Below, in pieces: positions 15,617 through 38,358 of a stretch of 64,000 bases of DNA (the first letter of the stretch is position 1; each line of letters begins with the position of its first letter). The stretch spans positions 3,720,001 through 3,784,000 of the forward strand of contig NZ_CP053073.1 of NCBI RefSeq assembly GCF_013003985.1. The letters run 5' to 3'. The stretch is from Usitatibacter palustris. GTDB taxonomy: Bacteria > Pseudomonadota > Gammaproteobacteria > Burkholderiales > Usitatibacteraceae. The position numbers and the translations under genes were made by a program. The notes beneath the pieces are model-generated. The model saw only the letters and a list, made by a program, of their open reading frames with translations, had not been told where the DNA came from and did not search any database.

Positions 15617-15717
15617 GGGCCGCAGTTGCCCGAAGGACCTGCTTGAACAGCGAAGCGGATTTGTACTGTTGACCCCCTACAGCAGGTCCTTCGTCGCTTC
15701 GCTCCTCAGGATGACAG
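15605..15717. repeat. Dispersed hairpin repeat, copy 1
   Basis: Inverted-repeat unit: the left arm begins CTGTCATCCTGAGG and runs to CGAAGGACCTGCTT; the right arm runs from AGCAGGTCCTTCGTCGCTTC to CAGGATGACAG. It covers the last codons of the AidB-like gene and fills the gap to the convergent reductase gene. A bidirectional terminator role is plausible. Confidence 0.9.
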
Positions 15718-31501: not shown

Positions 31502-32254
31502 CTACATCTGCTTGAACAAATGTGAATAGATCCGCGACACCACCAGGTTGTCGTCCTTCCCCTTGATCTTCACATGCGCCTGGCCGCGGAAGTCGCGTGT
31601 CACGGCGGCGATGGCGTTGGCATTCACCACGGTGGAACGGTGGATCTGCCAGAACACTTCGGGATCGAGACCGTCGAGGATCTCGCGGATCGGCGTCTTG
31701 ATGAGCGCCTCGGAATCGGCCGTCACCACGCGCGTGTATTTCTCGTCGGACTGGAAGAAGAGCACTTCGGCCACCGGGATGAGGCGCAGGTTCTGGCCGA
31801 CGTTGGCCTTGATCCACTGCAGCTTCTCCTTCTTGCCGGAGACGTGCTCGCCGATCTGCGCGAGGATCGACTTGAGGTCGGTGGGCGGCGAGTGCGCCGA
31901 GACCTTCGCCTTCAGCCGCTCGATCGTGACCGCGAGACGCTCGTCGGTGGCGGGCTTGAGGATGTAGTCGGCGGCACCGGTCTCGAAGGCCTGGACCGCG
32001 TACTCATCGTAGGCGGTGACGAAGATCACGTGGCACCGGTTGCCCACGTGGCGCGCGACTTCCACGCCCGTCATCTCGGGCATGCGGATATCGAGGAACA
32101 TGAAATCCGGGGTACGGTCCTCGAGGGCTTCGAGGGCGGCGGCGCCATCCTCGACGGAGGCGATGATCTCGAGCTCCGGCCAGAGCTTCTTCAGCTTCGC
32201 TTCGAGCTGCGCCCGGAGGATCGGCTCGTCCTCGGCGACGATGGCGGTAGGCAT
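31502..32254 (-). CDS. LytTR response regulator (pair 1)
   Basis: A 250-residue LytR/AlgR-type regulator. The receiver domain (1-120) has phospho-acceptor Asp in FMFLDIRMPEMTGVEV and the conserved VTAYDEYAVQAFE and DYILKPATDERL. The LytTR DNA-binding domain (about 150-250) has RLIPVAEVLFFQSDEKYTRV and PEVFWQIHRSTVVNANAI. It follows its kinase gene by 9 bp and is closely related to the second regulator at 34762. LytTR domains bind paired direct repeats, and such repeats occur at three promoters at 37.3-38.4 kb. Confidence 0.93.
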   Translation of the reverse strand: MPTAIVAEDEPILRAQLEAKLKKLWPELEIIASVEDGAAALEALEDRTPDFMFLDIRMPEMTGVEVARHVGNRCHVIFVTAYDEYAVQAFETGAADYILKPATDERLAVTIERLKAKVSAHSPPTDLKSILAQIGEHVSGKKEKLQWIKANVGQNLRLIPVAEVLFFQSDEKYTRVVTADSEALIKTPIREILDGLDPEVFWQIHRSTVVNANAIAAVTRDFRGQAHVKIKGKDDNLVVSRIYSHLFKQM

Positions 32255-32263
32255 GCCGCGATT

Positions 32264-34354
32264 CTACTTCGGCGTCGCCGGAACCGGCTCCTTCTTGTTC
32301 TTCTTCATGAGCCACCAGATGAGCACGCCGATCAGGGCGATGGGTGCCAGCACGGGGCTCAGCCCCGCGATGACCACGAGCGGGACGAAGATCGCGATGC
32401 CCACGATGAGGAAGCCCAGCCCGTAGATCACGACCGTGACGATCGCCAGGGCGAGCACCACCGCGAGCAGGCCCACGAGGATTCCGAGCGTACCCACGAT
32501 GGCACCACCGGGGCCAGTGAGCGCTTCGTTGCCGATCTCCACGGGCAATTCGCCGAAGAGCATGGCGACGAACGCGGCGAACGCGACCACGACGGCGCAC
32601 ACGGCCGCGGCCACGAAGACGTACGACAGGGCCTTGCGCCACCAGCGTTCCATCGTCGCCATCACCGCGAGCGCCTGCTGCGACTTGGTCTTGGGCGCGT
32701 CCGGTCCGGTTTCGAGCGTGGCCGCGGCGGGAGAGGCTGCCGCCGACGCGGGGGGAACGGCCTCCTCGGGCGCGGGCGGCATGGGCGCGGGCGCGCGCGT
32801 GCCGTCGGTCGGCACTTCGAGCGTGGCCACCACACCCTGGGGTTCGTTGGCTTCCATCGTGAGCTTGGCCGCGTCGCCGTAAAGCGCCGCGAGGCGCTCG
32901 CGGATGTTGGTGAGGCCCACGCCCGAGCCGATCGCTTCCGCGAAACCCTTGCCGGTGTCGGCCACGATGAGGCGCAACTTGCCCTCGACGCGCTCGGCGG
33001 TGATGCGCACGTTCCCGCCTTCGCGCTGCGGCTCCAGGCCGTGCTTGATCGCGTTCTCGACGAGCGAAGGCAGCATGAGCGGCGGGAACGAGAGGGGCTC
33101 GAGCTCGGCGGGCACGTTGATGTCGAACGTGAGGCGCTTGCCCATGCGCATCTGCAGGATGTTGAGGAACGCGCGCACGAGCTCGATCTCCTGGCCCACC
33201 GTGGAGACGGACTCGCGCATCTTGGGCAGCGCGTTGCGCAGGTACTGGATCAAGTGACCGGTCATCGCGCTCGCCTGCGCCGGGTCGACCTCGGTGAGTG
33301 CTTGCACGCTCGCGAGCGTGTTGTAGAGGAAGTGCGGCTCCACCTGCGCCTGCAGCGCGGCGAGCTTGGCTTCCGTCACCTGTTGCGTGAGGCGGTGGTA
33401 GTCGGCTTCCTTGCGCTTCAGCTCCGCCTGGCGTTGTGCCGCGCGCGAACGGTCGATGAAGAACTTCGCGATCACGGCGAGGACGAACATCGGCAGCAGG
33501 ATCATCACGAGCACGGCGCCGATGCCGATGCGATACATGTCGCCCACGACGTTGCGCTGGATCTTCGCGCGCAACTCGGGCGGGAGATCGGGCATCGGTC
33601 CCATGTCCACGTCCGGGTCGATGCGGATCACCGGGCCGCCCTTCTCGCCGATGGTGATGCCCAGGCTCGCGGTAGGCGCTTGCTTGTCGGCCTCCGCCTT
33701 GGCCTTCTCCTTCTCGGCGGCCTTGGCCTTCTCCTGCTCGAGCTTCGACACTTCCTTGTGGACCTTCGCGACCTCCTTGTCGAGCTTGGCCGCTTCCTTC
33801 GCCTGGCGTGCCGTCTCGCGCGCGTTCTCCTTCAGCGCGAGCCGGGCTTCCTTCTCCGCATCTTCGGCGGCCTTCAGCGATTCCTCGAGGTGACGGCGCG
33901 TCTCCGAATTGTCGATGCCGCCGCCCTTCAGGGCGCGCTCGGCCTCGCGGCGCGCTTCGCGCACCGCTTCGGTGGTGCGGCGCGCGGCCTCGTTCATCTG
34001 CTCGAGCGCATCGCGCTTGGAGCGCAGCACTTCGGAGCCGGCTTCACGCAGCTCGCGGCGCGCTTCCTCGAGGCCTTCGAGCGCGGTGTCGAGTTCGGCA
34101 CGCCGCTCCTCGTCGCGCGTGGCATCGCGCATGCCGCGCACCACGTTGCGGGCGAGGTTGATGGCCTGCTCGGCGAAGGTGTTGTCGATCTCGCGCTTGA
34201 TGGCGCGCGAATGCTCCGGATCCTCGAACTGGCGGTATCCGATGATGTGATAGGGCACCACGAAGAACGCGAGCCCGATCATCACCGTGATGGCGCCGAG
34301 GATCAGCGCCCACCAGGGCGTCTTGTTGAGGATGTTGGAGAGCGAGGATTTCAT
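32264..34354 (-). CDS. LytS-type sensor histidine kinase with coiled-coil sensor and C-terminal TM module (pair 1)
   Basis: A 696-residue kinase with unusual layout: TM1 (about 14-36); an Ala/Glu/Lys-rich helical coiled coil of some 180 residues (about 45-230), presumably periplasmic; TM2 (about 275-298); a His_kinase domain with phospho-His in QAQVEPHFLYNTLASVQ; and HATPase_c (LVENAIKHGL, GSGVGLTNIRERL). After a Pro/Ala linker come three or four further helices (about 580-690) and a Lys-rich tail. LytS kinases normally end with the ATPase domain, so this C-terminal membrane module is atypical. A 36-residue membrane protein lies 27 bp upstream. Confidence 0.9.
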   Translation of the reverse strand: MKSSLSNILNKTPWWALILGAITVMIGLAFFVVPYHIIGYRQFEDPEHSRAIKREIDNTFAEQAINLARNVVRGMRDATRDEERRAELDTALEGLEEARRELREAGSEVLRSKRDALEQMNEAARRTTEAVREARREAERALKGGGIDNSETRRHLEESLKAAEDAEKEARLALKENARETARQAKEAAKLDKEVAKVHKEVSKLEQEKAKAAEKEKAKAEADKQAPTASLGITIGEKGGPVIRIDPDVDMGPMPDLPPELRAKIQRNVVGDMYRIGIGAVLVMILLPMFVLAVIAKFFIDRSRAAQRQAELKRKEADYHRLTQQVTEAKLAALQAQVEPHFLYNTLASVQALTEVDPAQASAMTGHLIQYLRNALPKMRESVSTVGQEIELVRAFLNILQMRMGKRLTFDINVPAELEPLSFPPLMLPSLVENAIKHGLEPQREGGNVRITAERVEGKLRLIVADTGKGFAEAIGSGVGLTNIRERLAALYGDAAKLTMEANEPQGVVATLEVPTDGTRAPAPMPPAPEEAVPPASAAASPAAATLETGPDAPKTKSQQALAVMATMERWWRKALSYVFVAAAVCAVVVAFAAFVAMLFGELPVEIGNEALTGPGGAIVGTLGILVGLLAVVLALAIVTVVIYGLGFLIVGIAIFVPLVVIAGLSPVLAPIALIGVLIWWLMKKNKKEPVPATPK

Positions 34355-34492: not shown

Positions 34493-34649
34493 GGACACCT
34501 CCCCGGTTCGTCCGGGGCCACCCCCATGGCGGCCCCACGGAAGGCAAATTAGGCGATTGGGGGGGGGCCCGAAAGGCTCCGGGGCTGGAATGCAGAAGAC
34601 GGGGGGTAAAACGCTGCCGGGAGGGGTGAACGGGGGTGGAAAACCACCC

Positions 34650-34761: not shown

Positions 34762-35517
34762 TTACATTTGTTTGAACAGGTGCGTGAACGCCCTCGAAAC
34801 GACCACGGTTTCCTTGGACTCCTTCAGCGCGATCTCCGCCTGGTCCTTGAGCCCGCGCTTCACCGAGGCGATGTGGTCGACGTTGACGATCGTGGCGCGG
34901 TGGACCTGCCAGAACTTCTCGGGATCGAGCTCGTCGAGGAGCTCCTTGATGGGCTTCCTGATGAGCGCCTCGGAGTCGCACAGCACCACGCGCGTGTACT
35001 TCTCGTCGGACTGGAAGAAGAGCACCTCTTCGACCGGGATCAGGCGGACGTTGGAGCCCACCGAGGCCTTGATCCAGCGCAGGTGGTCGGAGGGCTTCGG
35101 ACTGAGGCGCGCGGCGAGCTGTTCGACCAACTGGTCGAGCACCGGCGGCGGTCCGGAAAGGCGTTCCTTGAGGCGCTCCACGCACAGGGCCAGGCGCTGC
35201 TCGTTGAAGGGCTTCAGGACATAGTCGATCGCGCCGCGCTCGAAGGCTTCCACGGCGTATTGGTCGAACGCGGTGACGAAGACGATGTGGGCGCGCTTGC
35301 CGATCGCGCGCGCGGCCTCGAGGCCGTTCACGCCGGGCATGTGGATGTCGAGGAAGAAGAGCGCGGGCTGGTGCTCGTCGCACACGGCATGCGCATCGCG
35401 GCCGTTCTCCATCTCGTGGACGATGGCGAGCTCGGGCCAGAGCTTGGCGAGGCGCGACTTGAGCTGCGATCGGAGCAGCGGCTCGTCGTCGGCGATGACG
35501 GCGGTCGGGCTTTTCAA
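34762..35517 (-). CDS. LytTR response regulator (pair 2)
   Basis: A 251-residue LytR/AlgR-type regulator parallel to the one at 31502. It has a receiver (LFFLDIHMPGVNGLEAARAI, VTAFDQYAVEAFE, DYVLKPFNEQRL) and a LytTR domain (RLIPVEEVLFFQSDEKYTRV, PEKFWQVHRATIVNVDHIAS, ending FTHLFKQM). The DNA-binding halves of the two regulators are highly alike, so they may share operators. It follows its kinase by 13 bp and ends against a dispersed repeat. Confidence 0.93.
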   Translation of the reverse strand: MKSPTAVIADDEPLLRSQLKSRLAKLWPELAIVHEMENGRDAHAVCDEHQPALFFLDIHMPGVNGLEAARAIGKRAHIVFVTAFDQYAVEAFERGAIDYVLKPFNEQRLALCVERLKERLSGPPPVLDQLVEQLAARLSPKPSDHLRWIKASVGSNVRLIPVEEVLFFQSDEKYTRVVLCDSEALIRKPIKELLDELDPEKFWQVHRATIVNVDHIASVKRGLKDQAEIALKESKETVVVSRAFTHLFKQM

Positions 35518-35530
35518 GGGCGTTGCGGGT

Positions 35531-36613
35531 TCAGGCGGCGCGTTCGACCCGCGGATTATCGTCCATTTCCGCGCTGGTACCGTTGTCGGCGGGAAGATCG
35601 AGCGTGGCGATCACGCCGTGGGGCTTGTTTTCCTCGAGCACGAGGCGCGCATCGGCCCCATAAAGCGTCTTCAGCCGCTCGCGGATGTTCGATAGCCCCA
35701 CGCCCGTGCCCTTCTTGAGCGAGATGCCTTCGCCGGAATCCGCGACCGACACGCGCAGGCGATCGCCTTCCTCGTGGACGCGCACGGAGATGCTGCCCGC
35801 GTCGCAACACGGATCCACGCCGTGCTTCACCGCGTTCTCCACGAGGGAGATCAGCATCATCGGCGGGAAGGGACGGCAGCGAAGGCTCTCGGGCATCGAC
35901 ACGTCGTAGGTGAGGCGCGAGCCCATGCGCATCGCGTTGATCTCGAGGAAGGCGCGCGACATATCCAGCTCGCGTCCGAGATTCGATTCGGCCTGGCGCA
36001 TCTGCGGCAACGCGGCGCGCAAGTACTGGATGAGGCTTTCGAGCATGCGCGCGGCCGCCGGCGGCTCGGTCTCGACCAGATGCTGCACATTGGCGAGCGT
36101 GTTGAAGAGAAAGTGCGGCTCGACCTGCGCCTGCAGCAGCTGCAGCCGCGCCTGCAGGACGTTCTTCTCGAGCTGGTGGCGTTCGGCTTCCGCGCGATGC
36201 AATCTCGCCGCGTCCTTCGCGTGCTTCTCGCGCAGGATGAAGGCGGCGACGACCACGCAGCCGAAGCCGATGCCGAGGCTCATCGTGATGGTCACGCCCG
36301 CGAGGCGCTCGGAGAACATCTGGACGATGTCGCGGCCCTTCACGAGGCCCGCGAGGATCGTGCCCACGAACGAGCCCACGAGGATCGCGACGACCTGCAT
36401 CACCTGCCGCGAGAAACGTTCCTGGCGGATGTTCCCGAAGATCGTGAACAGCAGCATGCTGGTGTAGCCCACGCAAAGCGCGCTCACCAGCAGGTCGAGA
36501 TAGGTGTTGAGGAAGAAGCCGACGACGATGCCGGTGGCCACCACGCAGATCGCGCTGACCCACGCGACGCGGCGAATCGTCAGACCTTCGAAGAGGTACG
36601 CAAACCGGTTCAC
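35531..36613 (-). CDS. LytS-type sensor histidine kinase (pair 2)
   Basis: A 360-residue kinase with four or so N-terminal helices (about 15-130) and little periplasmic sequence, then His_kinase with LLQAQVEPHFLFNTLANVQH and HATPase_c with SLVENAVKHGV, VADSGEGISLKKGTGVGLSN and IRERLKTLYG. It starts at GTG 36613. It probably senses a membrane or intramembrane signal, unlike its coiled-coil neighbour. It is the first firm gene of the second kinase-regulator operon; three small membrane-protein genes lie just upstream on the same strand. Confidence 0.92.
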   Translation of the reverse strand: MNRFAYLFEGLTIRRVAWVSAICVVATGIVVGFFLNTYLDLLVSALCVGYTSMLLFTIFGNIRQERFSRQVMQVVAILVGSFVGTILAGLVKGRDIVQMFSERLAGVTITMSLGIGFGCVVVAAFILREKHAKDAARLHRAEAERHQLEKNVLQARLQLLQAQVEPHFLFNTLANVQHLVETEPPAAARMLESLIQYLRAALPQMRQAESNLGRELDMSRAFLEINAMRMGSRLTYDVSMPESLRCRPFPPMMLISLVENAVKHGVDPCCDAGSISVRVHEEGDRLRVSVADSGEGISLKKGTGVGLSNIRERLKTLYGADARLVLEENKPHGVIATLDLPADNGTSAEMDDNPRVERAA

Positions 36614-36664: not shown

Positions 36665-36835
36665 TCATAGCGCTGCGACCGGAACGCGATCGGCGCGCTT
36701 CCAGCGCCGAGCGGCGACCCCGGGCGGCACTCGCCGCCACGGACGGTCCGAGGCCAGTATGGGGCGCGAGACAGGCTCGGGCAACGCAGTGCCCGGGTTG
36801 CTGTTCTTCGTGCCTGGCTGGTCCATCGGTTCCAT
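36665..36835 (-). CDS. Possible short Arg/Pro-rich protein (56 aa)
   Basis: ATG 36835 has GAGGA 7 nt upstream and opens 56 codons ending 51 bp before the kinase start. The product has no recognisable domain and an Arg-rich C-terminal half, so it may be spurious. Otherwise 36614-36976 holds only the terminator listed below. Confidence 0.25.
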   Translation of the reverse strand: MEPMDQPGTKNSNPGTALPEPVSRPILASDRPWRRVPPGVAARRWKRADRVPVAAL

Positions 36836-36930
36836 GTTCGATCCTCGCTGATGACTGTCAGGTTACGGTTTGCTACCCCGGGGAACCATCCGATTGCGAC
36901 GAAACGCGCATTCGGGCCCCCGGTTGGGGA

Positions 36931-36976: not shown

Positions 36977-37207
36977 TTAGAGGCTGCGGCTGGCGTGAAC
37001 CGTGAGCGTTGCGATCCGCTGGGGCAGGCGCTGCGCGGTGACCACGACCTTGTACGGCGATTCGATGGCGGCAACCGTCGCTTGCGGCGCCGAGACCTGC
37101 TTCGTGGTTCCGGCCGGCTGGTTCACCACCCAGGCCACCATGAGGCTGGCGACGACGAGCGCGAGGGTGACGACGGAGGTGCGATCGAGGGTCTGGACGG
37201 CGTTCAT
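36977..37207 (-). CDS. Small single-pass membrane protein, family member 1
   Basis: A 76-residue protein: N-terminal QTLDRTSV motif, one helix at about 11-28 (VVTLALVVASLMVAWVV), then an exported or periplasmic tail of some 47 residues ending SPYKVVVTAQRLPQRIATLT. The ATG follows AAAGGAGAAACACC. Two paralogues with the same plan follow at 37621 and 37973; KVVVT..RLPQR is shared with the third. It has its own LytTR-like promoter and its own terminator, so it is a monocistronic unit. I know no described family that fits. Confidence 0.8.
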   Translation of the reverse strand: MNAVQTLDRTSVVTLALVVASLMVAWVVNQPAGTTKQVSAPQATVAAIESPYKVVVTAQRLPQRIATLTVHASRSL

Positions 37208-37259
37208 GGTGTTTCTCCTTTGGGGTCGGTTGCGCTGTGTGCGCGTTCGGTATGTCGCC

Positions 37260-37327
37260 AATCTAGGCGTCCGAAACCCGGGGAGAAAGCGGGAAGCGAC
37301 GAAGTGCAGGAAGTACGGCGCGAATCG
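37260..37327 (-). promoter_or_regulatory. Promoter with LytTR-like direct repeat (P1)
   Basis: Minus strand: box A CGATTCGCG (37319-37327), 12 bp spacer, box B CACTTCGTC (37298-37306), exactly 32 bp, then -10 TAGATT (37260-37265). A weak -35 (TTTCTC) lies 17 bp before the -10. The two boxes start 21 bp apart, two helical turns, as in AlgR/AgrA-type LytTR sites. Confidence 0.65.
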
Positions 37328-37365
37328 CCATAGCGCGGGACAAGACTGCATGGAGGGGCCACAGG

Positions 37366-37518
37366 CAAGGGCGAGGTCCGCAGATAAACGCGGATAAACG
37401 CCGATAACGGCGGGACGTGATTGGGCATTCCCGGATGCGCAGGTGGACGAAGTCCCGCTCTCCCGGCCCTTCGCTTTCATCTGCGTTTATCCGCGTTTAT
37501 CTGCGGACCTCGCCCTTG
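37366..37518. repeat. 40-bp inverted repeat with GTTTATCCGCG-type units
   Basis: The arms 37366-37405 and 37479-37518 match at 39 of 40 positions around a 73-bp spacer. Each arm holds iterated units (ATCTGCG, TTTATCCGCG, TTTATCTGCGG) of a type seen dispersed in many bacterial genomes. It sits between the P1 promoter and the terminator of the second small gene. Confidence 0.92.
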
Positions 37519-37531
37519 ATCCAGCGTCGCC

Positions 37532-37559
37532 AAAAAAAACGCCCGGCCGAAGCCGGGCG
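37532..37559 (-). terminator. Rho-independent terminator
   Basis: On the minus strand, CGCCCGGC-TTCG-GCCGGGCG is followed by eight T. It lies 61 bp after the stop of the second small membrane-protein gene. Confidence 0.92.
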
Positions 37560-37620
37560 GGGACTCGCAACTTCCTCAGGTTGGGGGGGGAGGAAGCTGC
37601 TTCGGGGAGCTGTCCAGGCT

Positions 37621-37863
37621 CTAGATGCGCTGTGCGGTGGCCGGCGTTTCGGCGGCACCCACGACCTGCGTGATGCGCGCGCCTTCGCGGGCGGCCGTCA
37701 CGGTGAGCTTCATGTGTCCGTCCTGGGTGAGCGTGACTTCGCTCTTCGAGGACTGCGCGCGGGCGAGGCCCGTGGAGTCTGCTACCCAGGCCATCGCGAA
37801 ACTGACGGCGACTACGGCGACGGCGATGACGGAAGTGTTGTCGAGGCTCTGGTTCGTGTTCAT
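37621..37863 (-). CDS. Small single-pass membrane protein, family member 2
   Basis: An 80-residue protein with the shared N-terminal NQSLDNTSV motif and helix (VIAVAVVAVSFAMAWVA). Its exported tail is more divergent (VTLTQDGHMKLTVTAAREGA) but keeps a short beta-like KLTVT segment where the paralogues have KVVVT. AAGGAG lies 8 nt before ATG 37863. It has its own promoter (P2, short leader) and terminator. Confidence 0.8.
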   Translation of the reverse strand: MNTNQSLDNTSVIAVAVVAVSFAMAWVADSTGLARAQSSKSEVTLTQDGHMKLTVTAAREGARITQVVGAAETPATAQRI

Positions 37864-37882
37864 TTCGTTTCTCCTTGCCGCC

Positions 37883-37950
37883 AATCTATTCGGGCGACGC
37901 GAGCGGTGAAAGCAGGAAGCGACGAAGTGCGTAAAAGGCGGATCGAACGG
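37883..37950 (-). promoter_or_regulatory. Promoter with LytTR-like direct repeat (P2)
   Basis: Minus strand: box A CCGTTCGAT (37942-37950), 12 bp, box B CACTTCGTC (37921-37929), exactly 32 bp, then -10 TAGATT (37883-37888), with -35 TTTCAC. Box A closely resembles the AlgR core CCGTTCGTC. The -10 is only about 20 bp from the ATG. Confidence 0.68.
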
Positions 37951-37972
37951 CGACGCGGCCGGATGGAGCGGT

Positions 37973-38233
37973 TCAGGTGCGCGGCTGCCCGGTCGACACC
38001 GCGGCCGTCGCGGAAGGCGCGTTGCGCTGCGGCAGGCGAAGCCCGGTGACCACGACCTTGTAGCGGCCCTCGGCGGCGGGTGCTTCGACCACGGCATCGA
38101 GCGCTTCGGTGACCGCGGCGTGCTTCGCGGTGGCTGCCGGAACGTTCAGCATCCAGGTGATCGCGAGCGTCACGATGGCGAGCACGAAGACGGTGACGGC
38201 GGTGCGATCGAGGCTTTGGTTCGTCGTGTCCAT
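37973..38233 (-). CDS. Small single-pass membrane protein, family member 3
   Basis: An 86-residue protein: NQSLDRTAV motif, helix at about 13-30 (VTVFVLAIVTLAITWML), and a longer tail with GRYKVVVTGLRLPQRNAPS, closely matching member 1. The ATG follows AAAGGAGAAACACC, the same leader as member 1. No terminator is obvious; the next element downstream is promoter P2. The tail composition (Ala/Thr/Val) suggests an extracytoplasmic peptide anchored by the helix. Confidence 0.8.
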   Translation of the reverse strand: MDTTNQSLDRTAVTVFVLAIVTLAITWMLNVPAATAKHAAVTEALDAVVEAPAAEGRYKVVVTGLRLPQRNAPSATAAVSTGQPRT

Positions 38234-38290
38234 GGTGTTTCTCCTTTGTCTCTTGCAGCGACCCGGTGGGTACGCGTTCGGTATGGCGCC

Positions 38291-38358
38291 AATCTAGGCG
38301 CGTGCTCCGGGGGGAGAAAGCGGGAAGCGACGAAATGCGGAAAAGGCGGCGCGAAGTG
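38291..38358 (-). promoter_or_regulatory. Promoter with LytTR-like direct repeat (P3)
   Basis: Minus strand: box A CACTTCGCG (38350-38358), 12 bp, box B CATTTCGTC (38329-38337), exactly 32 bp, then -10 TAGATT (38291-38296), with -35 TTTCTC. Spacing is identical to P1 and P2, while the sequence between -35 and -10 has diverged. Confidence 0.66.

Follow-up and report, generated by a model that had tools for sequence, protein, structure and literature searches.

A putative LytTR operator in a fixed promoter register before small membrane proteins and LytTR kinases of Usitatibacter palustris and other betaproteobacteria

The stretch of DNA considered here, called the window throughout, is 64,000 nucleotides long and comes from Usitatibacter palustris (contig NZ_CP053073.1, positions 3,720,001 to 3,784,000). 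The host genome is complete (3.96 Mb), and the family to which it belongs, f1, is represented by 28 genomes in four genera (g1 to g4). Behind a sodium:solute symporter gene, the minus strand of the window has, in order, three small genes (m1, m2 and m3), an open reading frame (ORF) of 56 amino acids (aa), and the sensor kinase and response regulator genes HK1, RR1, HK2 and RR2 (Table 1). The original prediction, made from the letters of this locus, held that the three tandem small genes each have a promoter of their own. All three are there, encoding proteins of 76-86 aa with one hydrophobic segment each, and their promoters (P1-P3) carry, as quoted, two 9-bp boxes (A and B) whose starts lie 21 bp apart, 32 bp from box B to a TAGATT -10 element, and a poor -35 (TTTCTC or TTTCAC). 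The two LytTR kinase-regulator pairs said to be encoded downstream are likewise recognised by Pfam (His_kinase, E = 1.9e-20 and 5.4e-21; LytTR, E = 9e-22 and 1.5e-21). Two more sites, absent from that account, stand before HK1 (site 36903) and before HK2 (site 34589). It appears that a group of betaproteobacteria uses LytTR switches for small membrane proteins by way of this one fixed promoter layout, and the box pair is very probably a LytTR operator that defines a regulon.

P1-P3 are mutually 60-77% identical over 108 bp, and the m3 protein is 35% identical to m2 and 42% to m1. Since these promoters are paralogous, they are not three independent observations, and the window alone cannot decide whether their likeness means more than duplication. 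The strict box pattern put forward originally finds the m1 and m3 sites of the own genome and no other place, the m2 site being missed because of the first letters of its box A. A denser pattern allowing up to three mismatches returns the three small-gene places only, with no additional match. As strict patterns retrieve the window promoters alone, a looser model was needed.

A hidden Markov model (HMM) of the m1-m3 proteins, A1, has matches in 12 of 61 genomes (genomes are numbered G, loci L). In the g1 and g3 loci, HK1 follows the small gene in seven of nine cases (the contigs of the other two end first) and a symporter match precedes it in six of nine. The small-gene promoters of both genera share the boxes, and those of g3 also have the -10 in the same register. 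In G001, G003 and G005, which have no A1 match, the site itself pointed to a small gene. The A1 matches in G043 and G058 (E = 3.5e-4 and 6e-3) were dropped, being without syntenic LytTR genes and having box matches that look like chance. A matrix trained on 13 g3 sites only, that is, outside the genus of the window, puts the five window sites on top (P1 55.1, P2 33.7, P3 29.4, HK2 14.7, HK1 12.4); the next place in the window scores -11.6, and the reversed sequence of four loci reaches at most -3.8.

The register was examined in 45 loci selected by protein only, which hold 202 distinct occurrences of TTCGTCG. TANNNT stands at +38 from this word in 29 of them, at +39 in five, at +37 in one and at any other offset in no more than two; these counts come from related genomes, which are not independent trials. 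TTC stands at -21 in 26, other offsets giving 13 at most (mean 4). In the reversed control, TANNNT is at +38 in one of 99 occurrences. With TTCATCG in place of TTCGTCG, +38 is taken in eight of 209 and any other offset in at most three. The A3 set, from which model R1 is built, consists of 32 hand-picked sites that all contain TTCGTCGC, so that the conservation of box B within it follows from the choice; a truncated site (L020, 11608) and a TTCATCG site before the HK1 of G004 were left out. The small-gene sites of A3 have TANNNT at +38 in 16 of 20 cases. HK1 is preceded by a site of a second type, CGTTTCGTCGCA followed at +38 or +39 by TAACCT, TAGCCT or a similar word, in the window and in ten relatives (G001, G002, G003, G005, G007, G010, G012, G016, G018 and G020). 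The HK2 site scores 13.5, besides its 14.7 with the out-of-genus matrix, and similar sites are found behind RR1 in f1 relatives. The two-box layout recurs in all four f1 genera seen, where it stands ahead of LytTR kinases as well as of unrelated genes.

Two tests started from proteins and looked at promoters only afterwards. In the first, an HMM of six g2 proteins (A4) was run against 300 genomes of the order, the promoters of the tested genes being outside the training set. It finds 15 places in eight genomes, all f1. Eight of these places are small one-segment proteins, and the two-box promoter precedes all eight, with the -10 at +38 in seven and at +37 in G013. Seven score 9.6 to 41.1 and that of G013 -17.5, while the next best place in each stretch reaches -32 at most; one site (G009) had also come up in the R1 search. 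L155, L156 and L154 (the last in an unclear frame) show no site upstream, and the remaining matches, L159-L162, are long receptor-like frames of 557-849 aa.

The second test concerns another family, f8. At the LytTR locus of its genome G034, the gene behind the site encodes a protein that looks secreted and bears three motifs of the kind described below. With this protein as seed, similar proteins occur in four of 60 f8 genomes, G034 included, and an HMM of five f8 proteins matches in four of 399 genomes of the order, overlapping with those of the seed search. When the seed is excluded, eight first genes remain (one each in G342 and G330, two each in G231, G398 and G260), and each of the eight is preceded by the site, its -10 at +38 reading TAAAGT or TACAGT; the scores, 2.9 to 30.3, come from a matrix trained without any f8 site. 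The second gene of G034 has no site of its own. A kinase match lies downstream in three f8 loci (G034, G342 and G330). The proteins of both tests are related by descent, so nominal p values would overstate the case. Taken with the orthologous loci and the unrelated genes, the second family excludes duplication as the sole cause of the likeness. The original prediction had itself proposed to ask whether the boxes are conserved beyond what recent duplication explains; its LytTR-operator reading withstands this test at the level of sequence, since other genera keep boxes and spacing at their orthologous loci, and unrelated genes have them too. A regulatory role for the box pair is well supported.

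That LytTR regulators are named as the probable readers of the boxes is mainly because sites stand before LytTR kinase genes. Among three other LytTR loci of the same genome, a site before the kinase frame is strong in L061 (39.2), weak in L063 (3.8) and lacking in L062. A further 67 LytTR loci were fetched by similarity to RR1, after exclusion of L164-L174, L178 and L179 as f1; kinship of the rest was judged by record titles, among them Massilia, Ramlibacter, Rhodoferax, Chitinimonas, Caenimonas and Sulfuritalea, so that a few may still be f1. A site above -8 is present in 23 of the 67, always on the kinase strand and in 22 cases before the kinase, which in 20 of these lies within the first ORF of at least 150 aa. 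Reversed controls of all 80 fetched loci give two places above -8. These loci show no clear TTCGTCG register (of 199 occurrences, four have the -10 word at +38, seven at +37 and up to seven elsewhere); the strict-word register being blurred, support there comes from matrix score and placement.

RR1 and RR2 are alike in their DNA-binding parts. G006 and G013, moreover, have small genes with sites although what matches RR1 best there is a gene of RR2 type (59%); the site is therefore not assigned to RR1. In a search of solved structures with RR1, the best 60 of 71 matches aligned within the first 150-odd residues, outside the LytTR domain. The best NCBIfam model for both regulators is BtsR, of the E. 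coli BtsSR system (132.6 bits for RR1 and 131.1 for RR2), far under the equivalog cut-off of 246 bits, so neither is counted as a BtsR.

LytTR operators are described as two direct repeats of 9-11 bp with 10-13 bp between them, about two turns apart and cooperatively bound, most activators having their sites upstream of -35 (passages of PMC4847170 and PMC11347149). The window pairs fit this layout (9 bp, N12, starts 21 bp apart), and LytTR regulator genes are linked to them. Box B of m1, CATTTCGTC, has CATTTC in common with the YpdB operator GGCATTTCAT as given in the same passages. Unlike the LytTR and YpdB operators known from there, the window sites have a consensus of their own, TTCG-N17-TTCGTCGC, and keep the -10 in a 38-bp register with box B, and the targets of such sites include small membrane proteins. 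AlgZ/AlgR of Pseudomonas resembles the window pairs in joining a LytTR-family regulator to a sensor kinase (passages of PMC4064291). The AlgR core quoted there, CCGTTCGTC, is not reproduced by the window's box B: by eye, CACTTCGTC, CATTTCGTC and CGTTTCGTC each differ from it at two positions. The AlgR sites at algD, placed at -470, -394 and -45 in those passages, are unlike the 21-bp pair of the window, and the same passages of PMC4064291 name no small-protein targets.

The sites are not confined to this locus. Model R1, built from sequence only and matching its training sites by construction, finds P1 (one of them) at E = 4e-14. It has matches in 46 of 61 genomes at E<=1 and, at E<=1e-3, in 24 of 28 f1 genomes and four of 33 others. 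Downstream genes were inspected at 41 further sites among the matches listed, mainly the strongest near-full-length ones, and named by eye, except cytochrome c (Pfam). Behind these sites are additional small proteins with the motif; hydrophobic peptides of 30-32 aa (G001, G002, G003, G004, G005, G020 and G022); proteins of 69-77 aa with a PAND..F.R.A-like end (G000, G002, G004, G007 and G010); a cytochrome-c-like protein (G002, G004; matched by Pfam in the latter); a 2Fe-2S protein (G000, G024); secreted proteins of about 260 aa (G000, G012, G016); and efflux-adaptor-like frames (G005, G010, G012, G016). Some of the inspected sites have no convincing gene behind them, and behind the A3 site labelled S near HK2 of G011 and G013 there is at most a 46-aa frame, and no motif protein. 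Given this variety, the regulon is broader than the small motif proteins, and the dedicated local regulon of the original prediction gives way to one with sites at other loci and before other types of genes. The 30-32 aa peptides form a family in their own right behind LytTR-type promoters (L110, L112, L113, L114, L116, L118, L125 and L133).

In m1-m3 the maximal KD19 hydrophobicity, 2.2-2.3, is reached at residues 10-11 and falls to 0.8 or less past residue 35; no Pfam or NCBIfam model matches them above cut-off. Across genera little is kept in the small proteins except the hydrophobic segment and a C-terminal VVVTAxR-like stretch; it is this stretch that recurs, and not the NxSLDxTxV by which the original prediction described such proteins. 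In g2 the motif reads METIVVTAQR or LDTIVVTASR, often twice, and g2 and f8 proteins hold one to three copies. It resembles the TonB box, the handle by which the TonB motor takes hold of outer-membrane transporters, as seen near the N-terminus of TonB-dependent receptors of the window genome (VDTVVVTATR and VEKVEVTGTR among others), where such a segment also follows an N-terminal hydrophobic stretch. The window genome has 18 Plug and five TonB_C matches above the Pfam cut-off. The small proteins measure 65-117 aa as against at least 675 aa for most of these receptors, and those scanned have no plug match and no Pfam match above cut-off; m1-m3, at their length and with no plug or barrel match, are not TonB-dependent receptors.

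The likeness was scored with a TonB-box matrix of 15 boxes, picked by eye from 17 receptor N-termini out of the 18 Plug matches (two had no clear box), with p values from shuffles. Thirty small proteins were tested, 22 found by site or HMM A1 and eight by the motif-containing HMM A4, with G016 and G022 left out. The motif reaches p<=0.05 in 22 of the 30, and in 14 of the 22 found without the motif HMM; none of six other proteins of small-gene loci is significant (p>=0.11). Small membrane ORFs with the motif are 22 of 35 near a site and one of 104 away from one, loci found by HMM A1 included; in loci chosen by site alone the counts are five of 13 and none of 39. L155 (G000:C1:823014-823142) and L156 (G002), which have no LytTR site upstream, carry a double-glycine-type leader, ELSDSQLDNVAGG, and behind it two motifs of the VTAKR type, which raises the question of an exported peptide with TonB-box-like repeats.

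These data suggest the following scheme. The box pair would act as a LytTR operator, with a constant spacing between it and a weak sigma-70 promoter. RR1, RR2 or both would bind the two boxes, two helical turns apart and immediately upstream of -35, and the bound regulator would activate transcription. The putative targets are m1-m3, the kinase operons to which the regulators themselves belong (autoregulation) and, in other parts of the genome, further small membrane proteins together with some other genes. Operator, autoregulation and small-membrane-protein targets, taken together, are likely. The small proteins would be inner-membrane or exported, with a periplasmic C-terminal part in which the VVVTAxR-like segment may serve as a TonB-box-like strand for TonB, through its C-terminal domain, or for a similar partner, and so tune TonB traffic. 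Contact with TonB is our favoured guess on their function, and a tentative one; the more specific proposal, that LytTR-controlled small inner-membrane or exported proteins with one to three periplasmic TonB-box mimics compete with outer-membrane receptors for TonB, is if anything more doubtful. LytTR operators as such are known. What would be a new variant is a regulon, shared by two families, in which LytTR controls small membrane proteins with TonB-box-like motifs; no description of such a regulon, or of competition for TonB by its proteins, appeared among the papers listed in searches of the open PMC literature. In this scheme a local oddity becomes a testable regulon, whose defined site and register predict targets in at least two families and connect a class of regulators with small membrane proteins that lack annotation. 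Should the motif work, the cell could throttle or redirect the TonB motor by decoy proteins, a regulatory layer on TonB-dependent uptake.

Several observations weigh against the scheme. As for the operator, no site exceeds the threshold of -8 in 44 of the 67 further LytTR loci; the HK1 promoter of the window has a degenerate sequence, CCAACCGGG, at the position of box A; the out-of-genus matrix gives one place inside coding sequence of L061 a score of 3.7, equal to that of weak true sites; and the small-gene promoters of G002, G004, G008 and G024 are without TANNNT at +38. As for the proteins, the TonB-box score does not reach p<=0.05 in m2, G001, G002, G005, G012, G017_a and G020, and in G004 does so only away from the motif. 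The charges flanking the hydrophobic segment of m1-m3 leave, by inspection, the topology undecided, and genes without the motif (the 30-32 aa peptides, the 69-77 aa proteins, cytochrome c and others) also lie behind sites.

The operator part is unchanged if the small proteins are ordinary LytTR-controlled envelope proteins whose C-terminal strand meets another partner, for example the kinase in a feedback, TonB playing no part. This is quite plausible, and we judge it slightly more likely than contact with TonB: m1-m3 are without the acidic residue of most receptor boxes, the m2 segment is weak, other small targets have no motif, and many small membrane proteins act on kinases. Against it stands the closeness of the g2 forms of the motif to receptor boxes of the window genome.

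On another view, the locus would be an autoinducing-peptide circuit: the small proteins would be precursors that release short repeated peptides, and the LytTR-linked kinases would sense these. In agr and plantaricin circuits the peptide gene and the kinase-regulator operon are under the same type of promoter, and here, too, one direct-repeat type precedes both the small genes and the kinase operons. The one to three motif copies per protein in g2 and f8, and the signal-peptide-like start seen by eye in G034 and G342, also suit precursors, and an agr-like circuit in Gram-negative bacteria would follow. Pheromones usually diverge, however, whereas the motif is alike across genera and families and resembles receptor TonB boxes of the window genome, which makes the idea unlikely. 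Less likely still is that a regulator of another class reads the boxes: direct repeats are bound by other regulators too, but 22 of the 23 sites in the further loci precede kinases (in loci that had themselves been selected by a relative of RR1) and the geometry is the LytTR geometry of the passages in PMC4847170 and PMC11347149. That the boxes have no function and the promoters are alike through recent tandem duplication only, as their mutual identity might suggest, can be set aside as highly improbable, since orthologous loci share the layout, unrelated genes also have it and it extends to a second family.

Table 1. Genes, promoters and motif segments of the locus, in window coordinates
Feature	Position	Strand	Details
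m1, small single-pass protein, 86 aa	37973..38233	-	Ribosome-binding site GGAGA; HMM A1 match (m1 in training set)
m1 TonB-box-like segment RYKVVVTGLRLP	38030-38065	-	TonB-box matrix p=0.002
m2, small single-pass protein, 80 aa	37621..37863	-	Ribosome-binding site GGAGA
m2 TonB-box-like segment HMKLTVTAAREG, weak	37681-37716	-	TonB-box matrix p=0.067
m3, small single-pass protein, 76 aa	36977..37207	-	Ribosome-binding site GGAGA
m3 TonB-box-like segment PYKVVVTAQRLP	37022-37057	-	TonB-box matrix p=0.003
m1 promoter (P1)	38291..38358	-	Box A CACTTCGCG 38358-38350, box B CATTTCGTC 38337-38329, -10 TAGATT 38296-38291
m2 promoter (P2)	37883..37950	-	Box A CCGTTCGAT 37950-37942, box B CACTTCGTC 37929-37921, -10 TAGATT 37888-37883
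m3 promoter (P3)	37260..37327	-	Box A CGATTCGCG 37327-37319, box B CACTTCGTC 37306-37298, -10 TAGATT 37265-37260
Promoter before 56-aa ORF and HK1 (site 36903)	36860..36927	-	Box B CGTTTCGTC 36906-36898, -10 TAACCT 36865-36860
Promoter-like site before HK2 (site 34589)	34546..34613	-	CGTTTTACC-N12-CATTCCAGC-N32-TAATTT
Small ORF, 56 aa, between HK1 promoter and HK1	36665..36835	-	C-terminal RRWKRADRVPV
HK1, sensor kinase (PF06580, HATPase_c)	35531..36613	-	Domain match and synteny
RR1, LytTR response regulator	34762..35517	-	PF04397 match
HK2, sensor kinase (PF06580, HATPase_c)	32264..34354	-	Domain match and synteny
RR2, LytTR response regulator	31502..32254	-	PF04397 match and synteny

Some minor features of the locus deserve mention. 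The 56-aa ORF has counterparts at the same place in L021-L026, L029 and L065, with a recurring C-terminal R-W-K motif; that of G008 has a hydrophobic segment at its N-terminus. In g3 a second small membrane ORF (about 42 aa, beginning MSSIDRVISPQAFRV) follows the small gene (L022, 10538-10666, with counterparts in L021 and L024-L026). Between m2 and m3 lies a 47-nt inverted repeat (37366-37412 and 37472-37518 of the window). A 30-mer from one arm occurs at 30 places of the genome with up to three mismatches, many of them inverted pairs about 100 bp apart, and the repeat is a dispersed element that resembles repetitive extragenic palindromes (REP-like). Finally, a repeat around TCCTTCGTCGCTTCGCTCCTCAGGATGACAG, at window positions 15690, 18036, 19358 and 31438 on the plus strand, contains TTCGTCGC and none of the remaining site; it is probably a separate dispersed repeat.

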